From positions 1-25,625 of IMG/VR virus record IMGVR_UViG_3300022689_000407: a stretch of DNA of 25,625 bases; one strand, given 5' to 3'. The notes below the pieces were generated by a model that ran no database searches, was not told where the DNA came from, and was given only the letters and a program-made list of their open reading frames with translations. Origin of the DNA: a virus. The translations under genes and the position numbers were made by a program. This document shows positions 1 through 22,521 of the stretch, in pieces (positions within the stretch are counted from its first letter, which is position 1; every line of letters starts with the position of its first letter).

Positions 1-3000
1 CTGCTGCGCCAACGCCGCCTGCGCTGCCGCACGGCCGACCTGTCCCGCCGCCTCCGTCTGACGGTGCGCGGCCTGCTCCGCCGCCGCCGCCTCCTGCCGC
101 TGCACCGCCGCGATGCGCTGACGCACTTGGGCCTGGCCGTCGCGCAGCCGCTCCAGGCGCCCTTCGAGGGAGGTGAAGTTTTCGATCTCGCGCGCCATCG
201 CCGCGCCAAACTCGGTGATTGCCTCGCGCGACAGGCCGGCCTCTTCGGCGACCTTGATCATTTCGTCTTTGATTTGAACCAGCGCCTCGAGGGGCGCGCC
301 CTCGAAGGTCGCCGCGCGCAGCTCCGTCATCAGCGCGCTCAGACGCCGGTTGGCCTCATTGGTGCCAACGAAGAACTCGTCCCAGATCGAAGTCGCTTCA
401 CCCCGCAGGTCATTGGCGATGTGGTTGAGCAGGTCGCGCGACGCCTGACGTGCCTCTTCGGTCTCCGCCAGTGCTTTGCGCAGCCGGTCGCGCTCCTGCG
501 AAGCCTCCGCCGCCGACAGCCCGTCGATCGCCTCGGCAAGGTCGCGCACGCTGCCGGCCGTGGCGGTCACCGTGTCGCGGTAGGCGGCATCGGCTTCGGC
601 CAGCGCGCGCTGCGCCTTCTCGGCCGCCGACAGCTTGTCGATCAGCAGCGCGTAGGCGGCCGCCGCGGCGGTCAGCCCGACCCCGATCGGGCCGCCCAGG
701 AAGTCCACGACCTCGCCGCCGGCGCGCCGGGCCAATCCGCGCACGCCGGTGCTGCGCCGCACCGCTTCCAGTTCACGCTGCTGGGTCTCGATCATCGCAT
801 CGAGATCGGCCATGCGCTCGCGCGCACGCGCCATCTGGCGAACCATGGCTTGGGGTTGGTCCGGCCGGCCAAGCCAACCCCGAACCATGGCGTCGCTGGC
901 CGGCCGTTGCCCCGCCTCGGCGTCGCGCACGGCTTCGGGCACCCGGCGCAGCACAGCGGTTGGTCTGGCCGCGCCATCGCCGGCGATCTGCGCGCGCTGG
1001 CGTGCCATTTCCAACGCCGCGCGCTCGATCTCGACCTGGCTCCGGATCGTTTGACCCAGGTCCTTCATCGCTACACTATTGGCGCGGACATTCTCGCGTG
1101 CCCGACGCTCCAAATCGAGGCGCTCGGTCACCGTCTGCCCGAGCTGCGCCCGCTGGCGCGCGACGCTTTCCTCCGCCAGGCGAGCGCGCTGGCGCGCCTT
1201 GGTCCGGGGTTGGCTTGGCCGGCCGGACCAACCCCAAGCCGTGACCGCGGCGTCCAGGTCAGCACTGGCGACCGGGCGCGCACCGCGCCGAAGAGCATCC
1301 TGAAAGGCCTCCGGCACGCGCACACCGGCCGCGGGCGTTCCGCGCTCTCCAGCCAGCGTCGCGCGCTGGCGGGCGATCAGCCAGGCTTGGCGCATTGCCT
1401 CCCGGCTCGACATGCGCGCCTGCTCGCCGCGCATCATCTCGGCCTCGAGGCGTTGATGCATCACGTCGGCATCGCGGCGTGCGGCGTCGCGCATCCGCTC
1501 CTGCTCGGCCAAATCCGCAGCGAGCCGCTGCGATCGTTCGTCCGCCTCGATGCGCTGGCGCAGCTGGCGTTGTACGGCGTCGTAGCCGGTCGCCTGCTTC
1601 TGGAGCGGACCGAAGTCAACGTCCGGCCCCGCCTGCCGCGCCCGCTCCACCGCCCGCCGCCGCTCGGCCGCTTCGTTCTGTTCGATGCGCGTGCGGGCGC
1701 GCGCTTCCGTCAAGGCCCGTGCGGCTCGATCTCGCTCGGCGCGCAGAGCCGCCAAATCGGCCGCCCGCTGTCGGCGATCGGCGGCCTCAGACTGCAGCCG
1801 CTCGCGCACGCCGCCGACCCGCTCGCCGACCACCCGCCCACCGGCGCGCATGGTCCGGGGTTGGCTTGGCCGGCCGGACCAACCCCAAGCCACGGTGCGG
1901 GCGGCCAGCACGGTGCCGACCACGGCGGCCCCGGTGGCGATGGTCCGGGGTTGGCTTGGCCGGCCGGACCAACCCCAAGCCATGCTGTCGACAACGGCGT
2001 TGGTGTCGGCCAGGAGGGACCGCATCTCGCCGACGGCGTCCTTGAGTACCGGCAACAGCCGGTCGGTGATCTCGAGGCCGATATCGCCGAAGGCATTGGA
2101 CAGCAGCTTGGCTTGCGTCGACAACGCCTCGCTGAAGATCGCGAACTCGCGATCGAGCGCGCCGTGGTCCGGGGTTGGCTTGGCCGGCCGGACTAACCCC
2201 AAGCCGTGGTCGCGGCCGACCTCGAACGCCTCGAGCAGCTTCTCGTAATTGGCGGCGTACGATGGCAGCGTCCGTGCCAGTTCCTGCCCACGCAGCTCCA
2301 GCGTGTACAAGACCGCGCCGGCATCGTCGCCCACAGCGCGCAGCCGCTCCAGGAACTCCTTGGCCGCCGCCGTCGGATCGGCGCGGGCAAACGCCTTCAG
2401 CTCGGCCTGGCTGCGCTCCATGAAGGCGGCGGTCGCCTCGATCGGTTCGACCAGGGCCTGGTACAGCCGGCCCACAGATGTCCCGGCCAGCTCCGGATGC
2501 ACGCCGAGCGAGCGCGTGAAGGCCCCCCAGACGGCCGCGACCTCGCTGGTCACGCCCTGAAACCGAGCCAGATTCTGCGCGACATTGACCGTGTTGTTCG
2601 CGATCTCGCTCTCGAGGGCTTCAAAAGAGTTTCCCAGCGCCGTGATCGAACCGGCCAGGTTGTGGACGCCGGAATAATCTTCCTTCGACAGTGACAGGAT
2701 GCGACCCAACGCCCTTGCAGCTTCATCGCCGCGCAAGTCGGATGTCGTCTCCAGCTTGGCGATGGTCTCGACGAAGCTCTCCAGGTCTTGCCGTGAGCGC
2801 ACGCCAACGGTGCCGGCCGCCTGCGCGATCTCCGCCAGAGCCCGGGCAGACGTCGGGAGATCCGTCTTGGCACGGGCCCGCAGCGTCTCGCCGAGCCGGT
2901 GCATCGACGCCTCGGTGGCATCGGTGGTCTTGCGCACGCCGATCATGGCGCGCTCGAAGTCTGCGCCGGCCGTGATGAAACTGCGGATACCACCGAACGC

Positions 3001-3324
3001 TTGATCCGCGGCGATCGCACCCGCACCGAAGGCGAGCGCCTGCCGGATGCGCCGGCCGGTGCCCTCGAGCTCGGTTGCCGCCTTGTCGGCGTCGCCGCGC
3101 AGGTCCTTGAGCGCCTTGCCGGCCTCACCGGCACCGGCCTTGACGGCGCGGCTGGCCTCGGCGCCGGCTTCGCCGATCGTCCCGAGCGCGCCCGAGGCCT
3201 GGCGCGCAGTATTCTGCACATTGGTGCGCAGCTGGTCGGTGGCGTCGCCAATGGAGAGGATCGACGCGCGCGCCTGGCCCGCGCCTTCCACCTCCACCTT
3301 GACGAAGACCCGGTATTCGGCCAC
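1..3324 (-). CDS. Tail tape measure protein, 3' end outside window (partial)
   Basis: The reading frame is open from a GTG at 3324 to the window edge (1108 codons, no stop). GGGAG lies 6 nt before the GTG; another in-frame GTG lies shortly upstream. The N-terminus is AEYRVFVKVEVEGAGQ, followed by Ala/Gln/Arg/Glu-rich helical and coiled-coil sequence typical of tape measure proteins, which set tail length and assist DNA ejection. An early stretch (about residues 100-330, with GIRSFITAGADFERAMIGVRKTT) matches the tape-measure core style of phage-related minor tail proteins. A hydrophobic segment with GGPIGVGLTAAAAAYALLI lies near residue 880. It follows the tail chaperone genes, as expected. 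Five 14-residue insertions encoded by family A palindromes lie near residues 373, 448, 478, 695 and 813. A long opposite-strand open frame here is a high-GC shadow. Confidence 0.9.
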   Translation of the reverse strand, partial: MAEYRVFVKVEVEGAGQARASILSIGDATDQLRTNVQNTARQASGALGTIGEAGAEASRAVKAGAGEAGKALKDLRGDADKAATELEGTGRRIRQALAFGAGAIAADQAFGGIRSFITAGADFERAMIGVRKTTDATEASMHRLGETLRARAKTDLPTSARALAEIAQAAGTVGVRSRQDLESFVETIAKLETTSDLRGDEAARALGRILSLSKEDYSGVHNLAGSITALGNSFEALESEIANNTVNVAQNLARFQGVTSEVAAVWGAFTRSLGVHPELAGTSVGRLYQALVEPIEATAAFMERSQAELKAFARADPTAAAKEFLERLRAVGDDAGAVLYTLELRGQELARTLPSYAANYEKLLEAFEVGRDHGLGLVRPAKPTPDHGALDREFAIFSEALSTQAKLLSNAFGDIGLEITDRLLPVLKDAVGEMRSLLADTNAVVDSMAWGWSGRPSQPRTIATGAAVVGTVLAARTVAWGWSGRPSQPRTMRAGGRVVGERVGGVRERLQSEAADRRQRAADLAALRAERDRAARALTEARARTRIEQNEAAERRRAVERARQAGPDVDFGPLQKQATGYDAVQRQLRQRIEADERSQRLAADLAEQERMRDAARRDADVMHQRLEAEMMRGEQARMSSREAMRQAWLIARQRATLAGERGTPAAGVRVPEAFQDALRRGARPVASADLDAAVTAWGWSGRPSQPRTKARQRARLAEESVARQRAQLGQTVTERLDLERRARENVRANSVAMKDLGQTIRSQVEIERAALEMARQRAQIAGDGAARPTAVLRRVPEAVRDAEAGQRPASDAMVRGWLGRPDQPQAMVRQMARARERMADLDAMIETQQRELEAVRRSTGVRGLARRAGGEVVDFLGGPIGVGLTAAAAAYALLIDKLSAAEKAQRALAEADAAYRDTVTATAGSVRDLAEAIDGLSAAEASQERDRLRKALAETEEARQASRDLLNHIANDLRGEATSIWDEFFVGTNEANRRLSALMTELRAATFEGAPLEALVQIKDEMIKVAEEAGLSREAITEFGAAMAREIENFTSLEGRLERLRDGQAQVRQRIAAVQRQEAAAAEQAAHRQTEAAGQVGRAAAQAALAQQ
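847..886 (-). repeat. Family A palindromic element, copy 1 (in tape measure gene)
   Basis: A 40-bp copy, inverted relative to the other four in this gene. The 10-mer CGAACCATGG occurs at 839-848 and again at 881-890, 42 bp apart, so the insertion looks like a 42-bp addition with a duplicated target. On the coding strand it is read as GWLGRPDQPQ, with MVR present on both sides. The gene frame is preserved. Confidence 0.9.
1201..1240 (+). repeat. Family A palindromic element, copy 2 (in tape measure gene)
   Basis: A 40-bp copy starting GGTCCGGGGTTGG and ending CCAACCCCAAGCC. On the coding (minus) strand it is read as AWGWSGRPSQPRT, between AAVT and KARQRA. No clear target duplication is visible beyond a repeated Thr codon. 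Frame is preserved. Confidence 0.9.
1852..1891 (+). repeat. Family A palindromic element, copy 3 (in tape measure gene)
   Basis: A copy identical to the consensus over 40 bp. On the coding strand it is read as AWGWSGRPSQPRT between ARTV and MRAGG. Flanks CATGGT and CACGGT lie 42 bp apart, a partial match that could be a target duplication. It is only 50 bp from copy 4. Confidence 0.9.
1942..1981 (+). repeat. Family A palindromic element, copy 4 (in tape measure gene)
   Basis: A copy identical to copy 3 over 40 bp, in the same orientation and translated frame (AWGWSGRPSQPRT), between VDSM and IATGAA. The near identity of neighbouring copies suggests recent spread. Confidence 0.9.
2166..2205 (+). 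repeat. Family A palindromic element, copy 5 (in tape measure gene)
   Basis: A copy with one change (GACTAACC for GACCAACC). The 9-mer GCCGTGGTC is found at 2161-2169 and again at 2203-2211, 42 bp apart. On the coding strand this copy is read in a third frame as GLGLVRPAKPTPD with DHG on both sides. The single base change gives TTA for TTG (silent Leu) in the frame used, although it would create TAG in another frame. Confidence 0.9.
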
Positions 3325-3342
3325 CGAAAGCTCCCGATCCAC

Positions 3343-3561
3343 TGGGCGCGCGTGCATCTTGCACGCGCCTCTTCATCGTTAGTGCGACCAAGATGGTCGC
3401 GCTCCCAATCCCCGCGCCGCCGGGACCAACCCCAAGCTTGGGAGCGCGTGCATCTTGCACGCGCCTCTTCATCGTTAGTGCGACCAAGATGGTCGCGCTC
3501 CCAATCCCCGCGCCGGCCGGACCAACCCCAAGCTTGGGAGCGCGTGCATCTTGCACGCGCC
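3343..3561. repeat. Tandem 96-bp composite repeat between tape measure and tail chaperone genes
   Basis: This gene-free stretch holds two tandem copies of a 96-bp unit (3370-3465 and 3466-3561), preceded by a further family B hairpin at 3346-3369. Each unit joins a hairpin GCGACCAAGATGGTCGC, a CTCCCAATCCCC box, the right half of a family A element (GGACCAACCCCAAGC) and a family B hairpin with core GCGCGTGCATCTTGCACGCG. The units differ mainly at GCCGCCGGG versus GCCGGCCGG. It starts immediately after the TAG of the chaperone extension. Confidence 0.88.
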
Positions 3562-3821
3562 TATCCGCCTACGGCCCCGCCACCATCGGCGTCCTCGCTT
3601 TCGTCCAGGGCCTGGTCCTTCAGCCCCTCGATCAGGCCGGCCTCGATCGCCGGCAAGAACGTCGCCACCGCGCGCTCATCCAGCCCGCGGGCCCGCGCCA
3701 AGGCGAGCACGCCGGCCGCATCAAAGCCGATCACGTGGCCAGACGGGGCGATCCTCAATTGCGCGCCGCCGGCCTGGGCCGCCTCCCAGGCCTCTAGTCC
3801 TGCGACGCTTTGCGGCCGATC
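3561..3821 (-). CDS. Tail assembly chaperone -1 frameshift extension (T-like, DUF1799-like)
   Basis: This open frame continues past the end of the upstream chaperone in the -1 frame and encodes DRPQSVAGLEAWEAAQ, then QLRIAPSGHVIGFDAA, then LARARGLDERAVATFLPAIEAGLIEGLKDQALDE, ending at TAG 3563-3561. The order 'W..A', 'R..P.GHVIGFD', and a C-terminal Glu-rich helix is like the DUF1799 proteins found beside tail chaperones in Mu-like and lambda-like phages. No ATG, and no GTG or TTG with a ribosome site, begins this frame near its start. It therefore is most simply made by -1 slippage at GAAAAAG (3827-3821), giving a fusion of about 246 residues. The DUF assignment is from memory and moderate. 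Confidence 0.65.
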   Translation of the reverse strand, partial: DRPQSVAGLEAWEAAQAGGAQLRIAPSGHVIGFDAAGVLALARARGLDERAVATFLPAIEAGLIEGLKDQALDESEDADGGGAVGG

Positions 3822-6647: not shown

Positions 6648-6702
6648 AGTCCGGGGTTGGGCCAAGTTGTTGGAAGGGGGCCGGCCGGACCAACCCCAAG
6701 CC
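6648..6702 (+). repeat. Variant family A element with internal insertion
   Basis: Left part AGTCCGGGGTTGGGCC and right part GGCCGGACCAACCCC flank an extra segment (about 6664-6678) not found in other copies. It is fused directly to a family B hairpin on its right. Intergenic. Confidence 0.75.
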
Positions 6703-16955: not shown

Positions 16956-17054
16956 CTAGGCATCGTCTTCGACCGCCTCCTCCAGACGCTGCGCTTCCGA
17001 AGGACCGCCAACCAACCCGGTATGCGGAACGACAGGTTCGACCACGAGTCTCAA
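16956..17054 (-). CDS. Tiny ORF or gene remnant after the helicase, about 32 aa
   Basis: A TTG overlapping the helicase stop (TTGA) opens a frame that reads RLVVEPVVPHTGLVGG, then PSEAQRLEEAVEDDA, and stops with TAG exactly at the edge of a family B hairpin. A GTG at 17045 is an alternative start. The end is acidic and gene-like, and the hairpin next to it is placed as after real phage genes. It may be the C-terminal remnant of a phage gene disrupted when the defence cassette arrived, or a very small protein. No homologue is recognised. Confidence 0.35.
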   Translation of the reverse strand: MRLVVEPVVPHTGLVGGPSEAQRLEEAVEDDA

Positions 17055-20000
17055 TTAGCAATAATGGTGCGCATTTTTGCGAGGACGGAGGCATAGTCAT
17101 CGGAAGTTTCAAAGCTAAGCCGATCACCAATTTCCACTTCAAACGCCCGGTGAAGTTGAACGCGACCCAGTATGCCCTTCCTGGTTTCTGCGAAGGCGAT
17201 TTTGGCGGGCGTGTCGAAGCCACGCCTCACGGCCGTATGTAAGCATCCAATGACGGCTGGCGCAGTCAGGCTGTTGTCCGCATCTGCGAGCACATCTTGT
17301 GCTGTTTTCGCCACCAATCCAATGACATAGGTGATCCCCATCGGCACCAAGCGTGTGATCAGTCGTCTTGCTCTCGGGCATTCAAGTTGTTTCTTGTCCT
17401 TGGGATCGCCACCAAGGGCACGCTCAATGTCAATGAGCTGCTTTCCTGAAATCCATGCGAGCAGCCCTGGGCACAACGTGCTGATGGCATCTCCAGAGAA
17501 CGGTGCATTCTCTTTCCGCCCAATCGTCTTGAGGATTTCGCGACTCTCGCGTTGTAGGAGTGCTGACCGGGATTGCTCGTCTTCAGCCAACCACGAACAG
17601 GTCCAGGAAACCCATTCCGCGATTGAGACGGGAAGGGCCTGACGGGTTGCCTCCAGTCGATTGCGGAGGCTTGTCAGGACGGTGACCGATGCGCCACTTT
17701 GAGCAGCTAGTTCTAGGACGGACAGGTCCCCACACTCGCTCATCCGCTGGTCTAAAGCTGTCTTCAACGCCGCGACCTTGCCGTCGAATGCTGCAAGAGT
17801 CTCTCGCCTCAAAGCCATGAAGGCTGCAAACGATCTTTCGGTTGAAAAACGCGTTCTTGTCCCCGCCTCGCCCTCCTCCAATGCGGCCACGGTCGAGTAT
17901 CGATTTAACGCATACTCCGTATTTGGATCGCCGCCCCCCGGCTCACTGATGCGATCCAATATAACCTCTAGCGGATCAATAATATCGATGCACCGGTCGT
18001 CGTCGGGGAGAATTGAGCGTAGTTTTCTCTCTGCATCCGGTGCCAATGCCCTAGCATTCTTAAATTCAAGGATTTCTTCCGGAACGAGAAGCACCACTCC
18101 ATTCGCGAGGTGTCCAGCACGTCCTGCGCGCGCCGCCGCATTCAATATCTCATGCGCCCTAAGTGGCTGCCTAGACGAGTTTCTCCTGCGCGGTCCCTCT
18201 CCAAATGTACGATCATCATCATCCCCGTGTTCATCCTCTTCCATGCGCATGTCGCTTGCAAGAATAGCCAGGTGGGCAGGCAAATTGAGACCTTGAGCAA
18301 GCGTCGGGGTCGCCACAATGACCTTCGCCCCGTCTTTCCGGCGAAACATGCTTTGCGAGAGCTCCCGTTCAAGCTTAAGCATTCCCGCATGATGCGCGAC
18401 AGCTGATGCGGGACCTGTCAGTAACGAATGCTTACGCTCACCCAATTCAACGTCGAGGGCCTGCCATCGAGCTTCTTCGTCCGCGTTTGCTGTTACTGAA
18501 TCCTCAAGGGCGCTCGCAATATTTCTTGCCGTTGATACAGCGTGACCCTTATTATTGACGAAGATAATACATTTTGCGCCCACTTCCGCAGATTTCACTG
18601 CAATCTGGGCCGATACTTTGTTGACATTTCCAGTCAAATGAACGTTTCTCCTTCTTACGCTCCCAGAAAGCTCGACTTTGTGGCCGAGCAAAGGTGTAAT
18701 TCTAAAATCTATAGACCGGTGGGGCAACCAATTGTGGTGTAACCCGAATAACGCGAATGGCTTTACAAGCAACTCGCGTTTCGCGGCGGCTCCAAGTGGT
18801 TTTGGGGTTTTTCTTCTTGCGGTATCTATGTCTTGTTGTTTTCGAGTTGCGGCACGCCTGACAACAGCAGCGGTATCTATGTCTCGTTGTACTCGATCTG
18901 CGGCACGCCTGACCTCATCGATTGATCTCGCTTCGTAAACCACAACCCCCCGCGCCTGCCGACTGGGTTTCCAGAGGGCATCAACGAAAACGCAGTGTCG
19001 CCCTGTCAAGTGCTCGATCCAGTTTGCGAAGTCCTGACCATTCTTGATCATCGCCGACAGAAAGAGAAAGTCAGAGTCCGGTGCGACGCTATTGAAGGCA
19101 AGCACGCAGAACATACCGTCCAGGGAGCGGCGAAGCCCGGATTCTGCGCTGAGGAGGTGACATTCATCAAATACCAGTAGACCAACTTCAGCAAATATCT
19201 CGGGCGCATAGGAGAGCAACGCCAAGCAATGCTCCGGTGTCATGACCTCAATCTGCCGTAGTGTAGATCCGACGGCGAACATTTGATCGAAGTCGCTTGA
19301 TACGATTGACCCGAGCAAATCCTCAGGAAATATCTTCTGAAGATCGTCCTTGAGTTGGTCCACGAGAGCATGCGTCGGTGCGATGAAGATTACGCTTTTA
19401 TTTTGACCAAGGACGCTGGCGATCTTGAGGCAGGAGACCGTGGTCTTGCCGGCACCGGTTGGCAGCACCACCACGGCGGACGTTCCAGTATGGTGAAATC
19501 GCTTCTCGACGGCGGCACCGTGATTGGGCCAAAGGAACGGTGCTTCCGCTGCGCGATGCCGGAGCCATTTGCGCCAGAATCGTCCGTCGGTCCCGCCTGG
19601 AGGATCAATCTTCGTCACGGCTGCCTGCGCCGTCGCGTCGTATGCGGCAAGGAGCAGTGCCGCAAGGTGACGCGGACCTGGATAGGTCGTCAGCAACGGG
19701 GCCGTTTCAGTAGACTGGTACCAGGAGGTCGAGAGTTCCAGGACGCGTGAGAACGCCGCCCGTGCCGACGCGAAACGATCTCTGACTGTCTCGGGGGCTC
19801 GACGAGATAAGACTTCCGCGGCAAACAGCTCGACGCCAGTTAGAAGGGCCTCGAATAAAGCTGTGGTAGCCCGCGCCTCCAGGTCTTCTGGTGTGCGAAA
19901 TTCTTGCGTCCGCTTCCGCGCTCGCGAAAGAATTCGCCGCAACTTTCCGGAGGTGAAGTCCTGGACCCTCTCGGCAAGGAGTGTTGCGACGAATTCTTGC

Positions 20001-20437
20001 TGCCGATCGACAATTCGGATGCGTTGGGCGGCCTCATGGGCATCCGCATATTGCTCGGCAGCAAGGAAGAGCACCGCCGCTGAGAGACTGGGGTCTACCC
20101 GATCACGACTCAGAATAGGCTTCTCTATGCCGTCTTCAGTGGCTTGAGCCGCCTGCGCCAAGATTTGCTGCGCCGTTCCGGCGACGAACGCGGAGGCTCG
20201 ACGAACCTTAGGATCGTCGTGAATCGACGTGATGAGCTCGTAGGTATCCGCTATCCGTTCGAGAGGCCACTCATCCTCGCCGTCCATCTCTTCTGGGCTG
20301 GCGGCAGTCGCTCCACGAAGCCGTCGCGCAACAAGCTCAGCATAGTGCGCAGTCAGCCGCTCGGGTAGGGTGTGCGGGTCGAGGCCAGCCAATCCAGGGG
20401 CGGATCGCAGAAAAGCTGCTGTGTCAGGGTCGAACAT
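17051..20437 (-). CDS. SF2 DExH helicase of a Hachiman/AbpAB-like defence pair, 1128 aa
   Basis: A large helicase with an N-terminal ~310-residue helical region of no recognised family. It then has Walker A VLPTGAGKTT (about 324-333), motif Ia FIAPTHALVDQL, motif II DECH (424-427), motif III SAM (461-463, normally SAT), HHAGM (682-686), motif V ATPTLAQGLNLPA (709-721) and motif VI ARAGRAG (769-775). The HHAGM and motif V/VI style is Ski2/Hel308-like, as described for Hachiman HamB and AbpB. A 350-residue C-terminal region follows. A 17-residue tandem repeat lies at about 506-542. The ATG overlaps the nuclease stop (TGATG). Base composition is less GC-rich than the phage genes, supporting separate acquisition. 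The precise system name is an inference. Confidence 0.85.
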   Translation of the reverse strand: MFDPDTAAFLRSAPGLAGLDPHTLPERLTAHYAELVARRLRGATAASPEEMDGEDEWPLERIADTYELITSIHDDPKVRRASAFVAGTAQQILAQAAQATEDGIEKPILSRDRVDPSLSAAVLFLAAEQYADAHEAAQRIRIVDRQQEFVATLLAERVQDFTSGKLRRILSRARKRTQEFRTPEDLEARATTALFEALLTGVELFAAEVLSRRAPETVRDRFASARAAFSRVLELSTSWYQSTETAPLLTTYPGPRHLAALLLAAYDATAQAAVTKIDPPGGTDGRFWRKWLRHRAAEAPFLWPNHGAAVEKRFHHTGTSAVVVLPTGAGKTTVSCLKIASVLGQNKSVIFIAPTHALVDQLKDDLQKIFPEDLLGSIVSSDFDQMFAVGSTLRQIEVMTPEHCLALLSYAPEIFAEVGLLVFDECHLLSAESGLRRSLDGMFCVLAFNSVAPDSDFLFLSAMIKNGQDFANWIEHLTGRHCVFVDALWKPSRQARGVVVYEARSIDEVRRAADRVQRDIDTAAVVRRAATRKQQDIDTARRKTPKPLGAAAKRELLVKPFALFGLHHNWLPHRSIDFRITPLLGHKVELSGSVRRRNVHLTGNVNKVSAQIAVKSAEVGAKCIIFVNNKGHAVSTARNIASALEDSVTANADEEARWQALDVELGERKHSLLTGPASAVAHHAGMLKLERELSQSMFRRKDGAKVIVATPTLAQGLNLPAHLAILASDMRMEEDEHGDDDDRTFGEGPRRRNSSRQPLRAHEILNAAARAGRAGHLANGVVLLVPEEILEFKNARALAPDAERKLRSILPDDDRCIDIIDPLEVILDRISEPGGGDPNTEYALNRYSTVAALEEGEAGTRTRFSTERSFAAFMALRRETLAAFDGKVAALKTALDQRMSECGDLSVLELAAQSGASVTVLTSLRNRLEATRQALPVSIAEWVSWTCSWLAEDEQSRSALLQRESREILKTIGRKENAPFSGDAISTLCPGLLAWISGKQLIDIERALGGDPKDKKQLECPRARRLITRLVPMGITYVIGLVAKTAQDVLADADNSLTAPAVIGCLHTAVRRGFDTPAKIAFAETRKGILGRVQLHRAFEVEIGDRLSFETSDDYASVLAKMRTIIAN
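18819..18920 (-). repeat. 51-bp tandem duplication inside the helicase gene
   Basis: Two adjacent 51-bp units (18819-18869 and 18870-18920) share GCGGTATCTATGTCT and TGCGGCACGCCTGAC at the same offset. They encode 17-residue repeats with RRAADRVQRDIDTA and RRAATRKQQDIDTA. The frame is kept. It lies between motif III and the second RecA domain, where length changes may be tolerated. Confidence 0.88.
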
Positions 20438-21330
20438 CAGTCAGCGTCCGCTGGGAGGCTATCGATATAGGCTATGGCCCGAGATGCAAGTTGGTCGAAC
20501 CAAGCACGTAGATCGTTGGAGGTTACTAAAGTAGCTGCAATTCGGCGATTGGCCGCAATTCCCTCTAGCTTCTCATACCCACGGAACAAGTCCTTCCTGT
20601 ACCTGGATTGCTCGTATTTTGCCGTTACTGTTAAGCTCGCACGATAAGCTCTATACGTCTTCTGAAGAGAACGACTAGCCGCTTCAGTTGCCATGGTACC
20701 CTTAAGACCCGCCTTCTCTAACAATGCGGCAGCTGCGTCAAGTAACTCAGTTGCCCTTATTCCCGCATGATATTTTTCGAACTCCGGTATAACTTTTCGC
20801 GCGAAAGTATCTCGTGGGTGTTTCGTGCACTTGTCTTCTAAGATAGTAAGCTGCCTTACTTGACATGCTTTTGCATCAAACTCAATTGACAGGCCATCGA
20901 GTCCTTGGGTTGTGGGGCTTAGATGAGGTGCTTTGGAGAGAACCTCCCCATTTGCCATCAGCTGGGTGGCGACCCACGAAATTGCCTCAAAGATCAATCC
21001 ATCCCTCTGGTCTCTCCGCTTCTCTTCTTGGTCCTTTGTTCCTGCCGAAACCGTGAGCTTCCGCCTCGCTGCGCTCTTATAATCCGCCCCGACTACAGCC
21101 GGGTGAAATGGTTTGAGTTCATTTATAATTTCAGCCGCATGCGAAGCTTGCCCCATCGCGATGATTGCCACGATCCGTGCCAGCTGGTCGAGGTCTGCAA
21201 CAGTCCATCTGCTGACTGTGCAGTGCTGGTTGTCTTCAACAGGCTCGATTGCCAGCGGACACGAAACCTTTTGCGCTAATCGGGCAGACAGAATGTCTAC
21301 GTTATCGCTGCTGCGGCCAGGTGAGCTCAT
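20437..21330 (-). CDS. PD-(D/E)xK nuclease-like partner of the helicase (HamA/AbpA-like), 297 aa
   Basis: The chosen start ATG 21330 (MSSPGRSSDNVDILSARLAQ) has GGGG 7 nt upstream; the frame stays open to an ATG at 21468, whose first 46 residues look non-conserved. The centre has GLIFEAISWVATQL (E115), TTQGLDGLSIEFDAKA (D145) and LTILEDKCTKHPRD with E165-D-K167. E...D...ExK is the arrangement of a restriction-like nuclease fold. A helical C-terminal half follows. Paired with a large SF2 helicase, it matches the Hachiman (HamA with HamB) or AbpA-AbpB plan, where the nuclease is restrained by the helicase until phage DNA is sensed. Family naming is by architecture, not by search. Confidence 0.7.
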   Translation of the reverse strand: MSSPGRSSDNVDILSARLAQKVSCPLAIEPVEDNQHCTVSRWTVADLDQLARIVAIIAMGQASHAAEIINELKPFHPAVVGADYKSAARRKLTVSAGTKDQEEKRRDQRDGLIFEAISWVATQLMANGEVLSKAPHLSPTTQGLDGLSIEFDAKACQVRQLTILEDKCTKHPRDTFARKVIPEFEKYHAGIRATELLDAAAALLEKAGLKGTMATEAASRSLQKTYRAYRASLTVTAKYEQSRYRKDLFRGYEKLEGIAANRRIAATLVTSNDLRAWFDQLASRAIAYIDSLPADAD

Positions 21331-21468
21331 CGAGATACCCCGGTCCAGCCCAAGCACGTACTTAGGCGTCCCCCATGTTTGTCGGCGTAAGCAGTGTTGC
21401 TTGTCTTCCGTCCTGGAGTCAAGGACACGTGCGTTTTGCCGTAAGGTACCTGTGTTTTTATGACGCAT

Positions 21469-21760: not shown

Positions 21761-22258
21761 TCACTCGCACCAGCTTCCCCGCCGGCCGCCGTCATAGGGC
21801 CGCGCCAATTGGGCAAACAGAAGCTGGCCGCCGAGATCGCCGCCGGCTTGGCAATACACCTCGGCGACGACGCGCCCGGCCCAGGTGCCGCGCTGGACGG
21901 CGCGCAGCTCGACCCGCTGCCCGCACATCTCCGTCCACACCCGCGTGAAGGCGGTCGCCCGGTCTGCCAACGCCCGTTCGCGCGCGCATTGCGGACGCCG
22001 CGGCTCCGGCGTGTCCACGCCGGCGACGCGCACGGTCACCTCTAGCGTCTGACCCAGCCACAGATGTGCACGGACGACGGTCCGGGGTTGGCTTGGCCGG
22101 CCGGACCAACCCCAAGCCATCGTATCGCCGTCGATGACGCGCAGCACGTCGGCGGCGATGGTGCTCGCAAGGGTCTCCTCGGCGCTGGCCGGCACCGGCG
22201 CCAGAGCCGGCGCCACAGCAAGAGACGCCGTCAGCGCCAGCAGGGCCGCCGGTCTCAC
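21761..22258 (-). CDS. Secreted thermonuclease-like protein with in-gene insertion, 165 aa
   Basis: The GTG start at 22258 overlaps the upstream stop (GTGA). Residues 1-26 (RPAALLALTASLAVAPALAPVPASA) form a signal peptide. The mature part carries SNase motifs: DGDT (43-46), R77 and D82-T-P-E85 in TVRVAGVDTPE, and R129 in GRVVAEVY. Spacing R77-D82-E85 equals R35-D40-E43 of staphylococcal nuclease. A family A palindrome adds AWGWSGRPSQPRT directly after DGDT, in the strand bearing metal ligands, so activity may be reduced or lost. Similar nucleases occur in Mu-like phages after the Mor region. An upstream extension to 22492 is a shadow of the two preceding genes. Confidence 0.88.
   Translation of the reverse strand: MRPAALLALTASLAVAPALAPVPASAEETLASTIAADVLRVIDGDTMAWGWSGRPSQPRTVVRAHLWLGQTLEVTVRVAGVDTPEPRRPQCARERALADRATAFTRVWTEMCGQRVELRAVQRGTWAGRVVAEVYCQAGGDLGGQLLFAQLARPYDGGRRGSWCE
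22079..22118 (+). repeat. Family A palindromic element in the thermonuclease gene
   Basis: A 40-bp copy identical to tape measure copies 2-4, in the same orientation and the same translated frame. It is inserted between the codons for DGDTM and VVRAHLWL. Removing 42 bp would give DGDTVVRAHLWLGQ, a normal-looking family sequence. Confidence 0.9.
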
Positions 22259-22521
22259 GCCGCCCCCTTTCGCCCGAGCAGGGCGAAACGCTCCACGCGC
22301 CGGACCAGTTCTTCCGCCTCCGCTCGCCGGCTTTCGGCAAGGTAGCGGCGGATGTTGCGCAGCTCGGTCGGGAACGGCGCCACGAGATCCCGGCACAGAA
22401 GCACCAAGCCCATGTCTGGCGGTGCACCGCACCTCAGACATCGGTAGCGTTTGCGGTGCGCTGTTGCAATCCGTTCGCGGTCGGTCAGCCATGCCGGTTT
22501 TTCGGCGCCGCGCTTAGCCAT
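22255..22521 (-). CDS. Small CxxC protein of unknown function, 88 aa
   Basis: MAKRGAEKPAWLTDRERIATAHRKRYRCLRCGAPPDMGLVLLCRDLVAPFPTELRNI has CLRC and a third Cys (43), followed by a charged helix (RRYLAESRRAEAEELVRRVERFALL). It overlaps the end of the Mor-like gene by 8 bp and the thermonuclease start by 3 bp, so it lies in a tightly packed operon and is probably real. A small metal site is possible, but only three Cys are clear. No family recognised. Confidence 0.65.
   Translation of the reverse strand: MAKRGAEKPAWLTDRERIATAHRKRYRCLRCGAPPDMGLVLLCRDLVAPFPTELRNIRRYLAESRRAEAEELVRRVERFALLGRKGAA

Follow-up and report, generated by a model that had tools for sequence, protein, structure and literature searches.

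A 40-nucleotide palindromic repeat that appears to have inserted in frame in several genes of Mu-like phages

The window analysed here is a virus record of 25,625 bases (IMGVR_UViG_3300022689_000407) whose structural genes are Mu-like (portal, I protease and gpT). Its minus strand carries a tail tape measure gene (positions 1–3357; phrog_28, E 2e-30) that is cut by the window edge; the frame begins with an ATG at 3357 and runs off the window at base 1, with 1119 codons free of stops, a figure that covers only the part inside the window and is counted from a start codon whose position is uncertain. The original prediction had given the frame 1108 codons; the frame is open through all five repeat copies described below. 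The plus strand opposite this gene is also open from 1 to 2196 (731 codons); open frames of this kind opposite a gene are a common feature of coding DNA rich in GC. The N-terminal part of the tape measure protein, used as the query of a scan, returned no relatives. Further along the window lies a minus-strand gene for a thermonuclease-like endonuclease (21761–22492; phrog_452). The stretch 17051–21468 encodes a 1128-residue helicase of the DEAD/ResIII type, with a weak likeness to the HamB and PDC-M23B defence helicases, and an adjoining 343-residue protein with no PADLOC or Pfam match; in a Mu-like record these two are possibly a carried defence module.

Five near-identical copies of one 40-nucleotide (nt) unit, GGTCCGGGGTTGGCTTGGCCGGCCGGACCAACCCCAAGCC, lie within the tape measure gene between 847 and 2205, each adding 42 nt (14 codons), just as had been predicted. 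Three are identical to the unit, namely W2 (1201–1240), W3 (1852–1891) and W4 (1942–1981, with an exact 2-bp flanking repeat, AT), all on the plus strand and read in the minus-strand gene as TAWGWSGRPSQPRTK, VAWGWSGRPSQPRTM and MAWGWSGRPSQPRTI, respectively. W5 (2166–2205, plus strand) has one change, is read in another frame as HGLGLVRPAKPTPDH and has a direct repeat GTGGTC, while W1 (847–886, minus strand) is inverted with one change, is read as MVRGWLGRPDQPQAM and ends with an 8-bp direct repeat, ATGGTTCG. An exact sixth copy, W6 (22079–22118, plus strand), lies in frame in the thermonuclease-like gene, right behind the residues VIDGDT. When the window was searched with a 19-nt probe at three mismatches or fewer, 10 matches were found against 0.02 expected, and none of 100 shuffles reached that number. 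A 55-nt form with a long loop, probably intergenic, occupies 6648–6702 (plus strand). There are also two half elements on the plus strand, each a right half, at 3415–3437 (diverged) and 3511–3533, within a tandem array of other palindromes. This array (3343–3562) consists of two tandem copies, 97% identical, and a partial third of a 96-bp unit in which the palindromes GCGCGTGCATCTTGCACGCGC and GCGACCAAGATGGTCGC are linked by half of the 40-nt element.

Searches of other genomes for the consensus, as proposed with the original prediction, recovered it in Mu-like records, a phage contig and a single MAG; the other genomes sampled gave none. Among 2.9 million viral contigs searched for exact matches, the element was located in two further records, both from metagenome 3300022678. 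One of these, IMGVR_UViG_3300022678_000100 (loci L007 and L008), is Mu-like by its MuA-type transposase, portal and terminase; it has the 40-nt element in frame in the transposase gene (L007) and in a gp36-like gene (L008), and the 55-nt form inside the minus-strand portal gene at L008. The other, IMGVR_UViG_3300022678_000063 (L029), is Mu-like by its protease and tail tube, and its copy is seemingly intergenic, as is one diverged copy in the phage contig IMGVR_UViG_3300005253_000354 (L114). One strict pattern run against 84,980 species genomes matched only the MAG 'Proteobacteria bacterium B18T1L10', which holds ten copies of the short form and one of the long form, seemingly intergenic as well (for all of the non-coding copies this status comes from open reading frame and family calls rather than curated annotation). 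Beyond the MAG, no member of the element family was found in genomes sampled at widening ranks (58 relatives, 9 family members, 385 class genomes and 398 phylum genomes), and the matches in annotated phages and plasmids were all partial, with E-values at chance level. Three pattern matches (L135–L137) were unrelated to the element once inspected.

Comparison with homologues and with empty sites bears out the prediction of insertion, in that the copies that were so checked are, as read from the alignments, insertions. The L007 transposase has NVGGWLGRPDQPQAIV where its homologues in phages HS6, RC1 and MuM16-1 are gapped; the nuclease reads VIDGDT[MAWGWSGRPSQPRT]V, and in two plasmid homologues DGDT is present but the block is missing; and the L008 gp36-like protein has EAWGWSGRPSQPRTDE, within a variable stretch, where five homologues show a gap. 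At the position of W5 the tape measure protein of Wolbachia phage WO has a 13-residue gap, resuming with HGSMQREF opposite HGALDREF, and that of Streptococcus phage Javan129 a 10-residue gap; at this site, then, unrelated tape measure proteins do not share the peptide, which was the outcome that would have refuted the prediction. This alignment bears on the fifth copy only, and insertion of W1–W4, which fall beyond the part of the protein that can be aligned to homologues, is inferred from repeat identity. The window's own portal is without the insert of the L008 portal, with which it shares 42% identity. In the phage contigs a AACCGCAGAGGACGCAGAGG-type repeat is split by copies of the element (L008 9626–9665 and L029 9888–9942), and intact repeats of this type are present in the same records (L008 7717; L029 minus strand 354). 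In the MAG the element sits in a larger hairpin, whose loop it fills; the same hairpin is also found element-free. In-frame insertion appears, from these sequences, to have occurred at least nine times in five genes of Mu-like phages (those for the tape measure protein, nuclease, MuA-like transposase, gp36-like protein and portal). Copies are identical at 40 of 40 positions between phages whose portals share 42% identity, which speaks for recent spread. If the repeats were instead ancestral peptides of the tape measure protein, with no inserted DNA, one long structural gene might well hold five of them; but the same DNA turns up in unrelated genes as well as at intergenic sites, it does so in two frames, in either orientation and with differing flanks, and the block is missing from homologues. 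That reading is already contradicted and we give it next to no weight.

The short form of the element has the plan GG-P-GGGGTTGG-Q-GGCCGGCC-P'-CCAACCCC-Q'-CC, in which P, Q, P' and Q' are variable blocks of 3 nt with centres 11 nt apart. Its halves had been described as near mirror images, but two of the 3-nt blocks are swapped and the best pairing is crosswise: P and P' form helix A, and Q and Q' helix B, each of 7 bp, in the manner of an H-type pseudoknot. The terminal inverted repeats are these interleaved 7-bp A and B, and the GG/CC ends are weakly palindromic. Helix A is found as GGTCCGG/CCGGACC, GGTTCGG/CCGAACC (MAG), GGTCTGG/CCAGACC (L029) and GGCGCGG/CCGCGCC (L114), and helix B as GGCTTGG/CCAAGCC, GTTTTGG/CCAAAAC (L008:3082) and GTCTTGG/CCAAGAC (L114); long forms retain helix A and have a longer loop in place of the short Q block. 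Across the ten distinct sequences, 96–97% of the cells in A and B are paired, with five covarying pairs, and when partners were shuffled the crosswise score was matched in 0.05% of trials (p = 0.0005), compared with p = 0.87 for the simple palindrome register. Drawn from ten sequences of few lineages, this covariation is good but not final evidence; the element appears to vary in matched pairs, as though its folded shape mattered. An RNA hairpin had also been predicted, and a nested hairpin is indeed the minimum-energy RNA fold of the common form, pseudoknots being outside the scoring; folding energies of DNA and RNA are not exceptional against shuffles, and the simple hairpin is not supported as the constrained structure because the palindrome register does not covary. 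No Rfam family among 4227 matched at its gathering score.

The consensus short form has no stops in any of the six frames. The nine coding copies fall into palindrome-equivalent frame classes as 7/2/0, the two being W5 and the L008 portal copy, a weak bias (binomial about 0.025, by our own calculation). One common frame for all coding copies is ruled out, with W5 in another frame and the long L008 copy in a minus-strand gene; nor is adaptation to coding regions, which had been suggested, shown, given the seemingly intergenic position of several copies and the slightness of this bias. Both changes among the tape measure copies are synonymous (W1, GTC to GTT; W5, TTG to TTA), in line with translation of the insert. 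The insert might alternatively be transcribed and then skipped in translation, in the manner of byp elements or of gene 60. Such bypassing would suit inserts that form hairpins and lie in essential genes, and the codons on the two sides of the insert are identical at W1 and W5; against it stand these synonymous changes and the unlike flanking codons at W2, W3, W4 and W6. With flanking codons unlike at most of these copies, and with every coding insert a multiple of three that contains no stop, we consider bypassing very improbable.

The junctions point to a target preference. Among the nine coding copies, the 2-nt flanks on either side of the 40-mer or 55-mer match exactly at four and agree in one base at the remaining five (p = 0.005 for at least four identical by chance). 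The three bases ahead of this pair agree with GCC at 18 of 27 letters (p = 0.0009), and the three beyond it with GGT at 19 of 27 (p < 5e-5); the resulting target, GCC-NN-GGT, is the sequence that the ends of the element would form if they were joined (AAGCC-NN-GGTCC). With this layout and a repeat of about 2 bp, each insertion adds 42 (or 57) nt, which is divisible by three. Not all junctions are alike: the left ends of W1 and L007 are off consensus toward the target sequence, which lengthens their direct repeats (to the 8 bp noted above for W1), the L029 copy has a 4-bp direct repeat, GGAC, and a MAG junction shows a small deletion. Flanks differ at every coding copy, and for that reason gene conversion, proposed earlier as a means of spread, is without evidence. 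The chief rival to a mobile element is template switching at microhomology, in which a nascent strand ending in GGT would jump to an existing copy, copy its 40 nt and return at GCC; no dedicated enzyme would be required, and spread would be a by-product of the element's ends and hairpins. It would explain why targets match both element ends, why the left ends of W1 and L007 look as if derived from the target and why junctions are not uniform. On the other hand, the near-constant 40-nt boundaries of all the coding copies and the conserved paired blocks suggest that a defined unit is recognised, and we judge enzyme-free copying of this kind unlikely.

A different source of movement is suggested by the MAG, where the copies sit within a family of REP-like hairpins (CCGGCCCGCACCCCCGCCCGGCC ... 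GGCCGGGCGGGGGTGCGGGCCGG; G001, L040–L069); some of these hairpins have empty loops of about 23 nt, and in others the loop is filled with the element. These MAG copies look as if they came from one founder insertion. The MAG is not supported as the phages' host, its P/P' block being diverged and its copies confined to that one hairpin family. REPs and REPINs are short interspersed palindromes of bacteria, extragenic and linked to RAYTs (PMC3116915), and they resemble the present element in being short, dispersed and probably moved in trans. A REP-type element moved on single-stranded hairpins by a RAYT (a Y1 HUH transposase, PF01797) would fit with the four Y1_Tnp genes of the MAG, but the element is not near any of those four loci, no phage record contains a Y1_Tnp gene and no linked RAYT was found, and nine copies here are in genes. 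We therefore regard this origin as quite improbable.

Among known systems, the small dispersed repeats of cyanobacteria, reportedly recognised by Elhai and colleagues in 2008 as very small mobile repeats, are alike in tiny size and mobility as described, and belong to a different host group. Rickettsia palindromic elements (RPEs), as summarised in PMC10969869 (after Ogata et al. 2000, 2002), are non-autonomous palindromes of about 150 bp in Rickettsia chromosomes. They too lie in frame within many unrelated protein genes, as the phage element does within five, and are translated as an extra peptide; by that summary they differ in length (about 150 bp against 40 or 55 nt), and the present element is found in GC-rich Mu-like phages and pairs crosswise rather than simply. 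The comparison, made by setting descriptions side by side, is apt as an analogy, with no sequence relation apparent. The GC42 clusters of yeast mitochondria, 42 nt long, with AG as the target nucleotides and stems that are under constraint (PMC4478555), share with other GC clusters and with the phage element a GC-rich palindrome of about 40 nt, recent proliferation, structural constraint and a two-nucleotide target repeat. They are fungal, mitochondrial and mostly intergenic, whereas the copies described here are in phage and bacterial contigs and often in genes, and the GCC-NN-GGT target and two interleaved repeats are features of the phage element unlike GC42; the resemblance is one of design only, and we do not claim homology. 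Bacterial MITEs, several of which are known to form in-frame fusions (reviewed in PMC10969869), are likewise non-autonomous, multi-copy and bounded by inverted repeats. The phage element is much shorter than these and has a target repeat of about 2 bp that is often inexact, and no parent transposon with the same ends was found in the records searched.

Insertion, spread through several genes and genomes, recency, target preference and paired variation we regard as established by sequence. The reading we prefer, with a probability of about 0.7, takes the repeats for a mobile palindrome of very small size that is non-autonomous, measures 40 nt or, in its long-loop form, 55 nt, and is carried by a few phages of the Mu-like kind and by one proteobacterial genome at least. 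A trans-acting enzyme from the host or another element would recognise the interleaved repeats, the element would be copied or moved as a short form, and its ends would be matched to a short target, with an insertion that repeats about 2 bp; copies within genes would persist thanks to an insert that lacks stops and has a length divisible by three, and would be read as a tolerated 14-residue linker. Against a mobile palindrome count the inexact 2-bp repeat in five of the nine coding copies, the other kinds of junction at some intergenic copies, the small set of sequences and lineages behind the covariation, the nested hairpin as minimum-energy RNA fold in place of the crosswise one, and the fact that the records at hand yielded neither a mobilising enzyme nor a circular form, nor any site polymorphic for the presence of a copy. 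More tentatively, and with the odds against it, the element could represent a new class of micro-transposon, of 40 nt, with two interleaved inverted repeats, 3-nt blocks (P, Q, P', Q') that recur at intervals of 11 nt and can be exchanged, movement through phage and host genomes with targeting by end homology, and repeated in-frame entry into essential phage genes. The open-licence literature searched yielded no account of an element like this within phage genes, and the element appears to be among the smallest mobile-looking elements seen within virus genes.

How palindromes only a few tens of bases long move is a question that also concerns RPEs, mitochondrial GC clusters and the cyanobacterial repeats. 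Near-identical copies, readable insertion sites with a target motif, and crosswise covariation together give testable predictions of what the machinery recognises. The finding would further mean that structural genes of phages can take in 14-residue insertions from mobile DNA time and again, and so gain new protein sequence.
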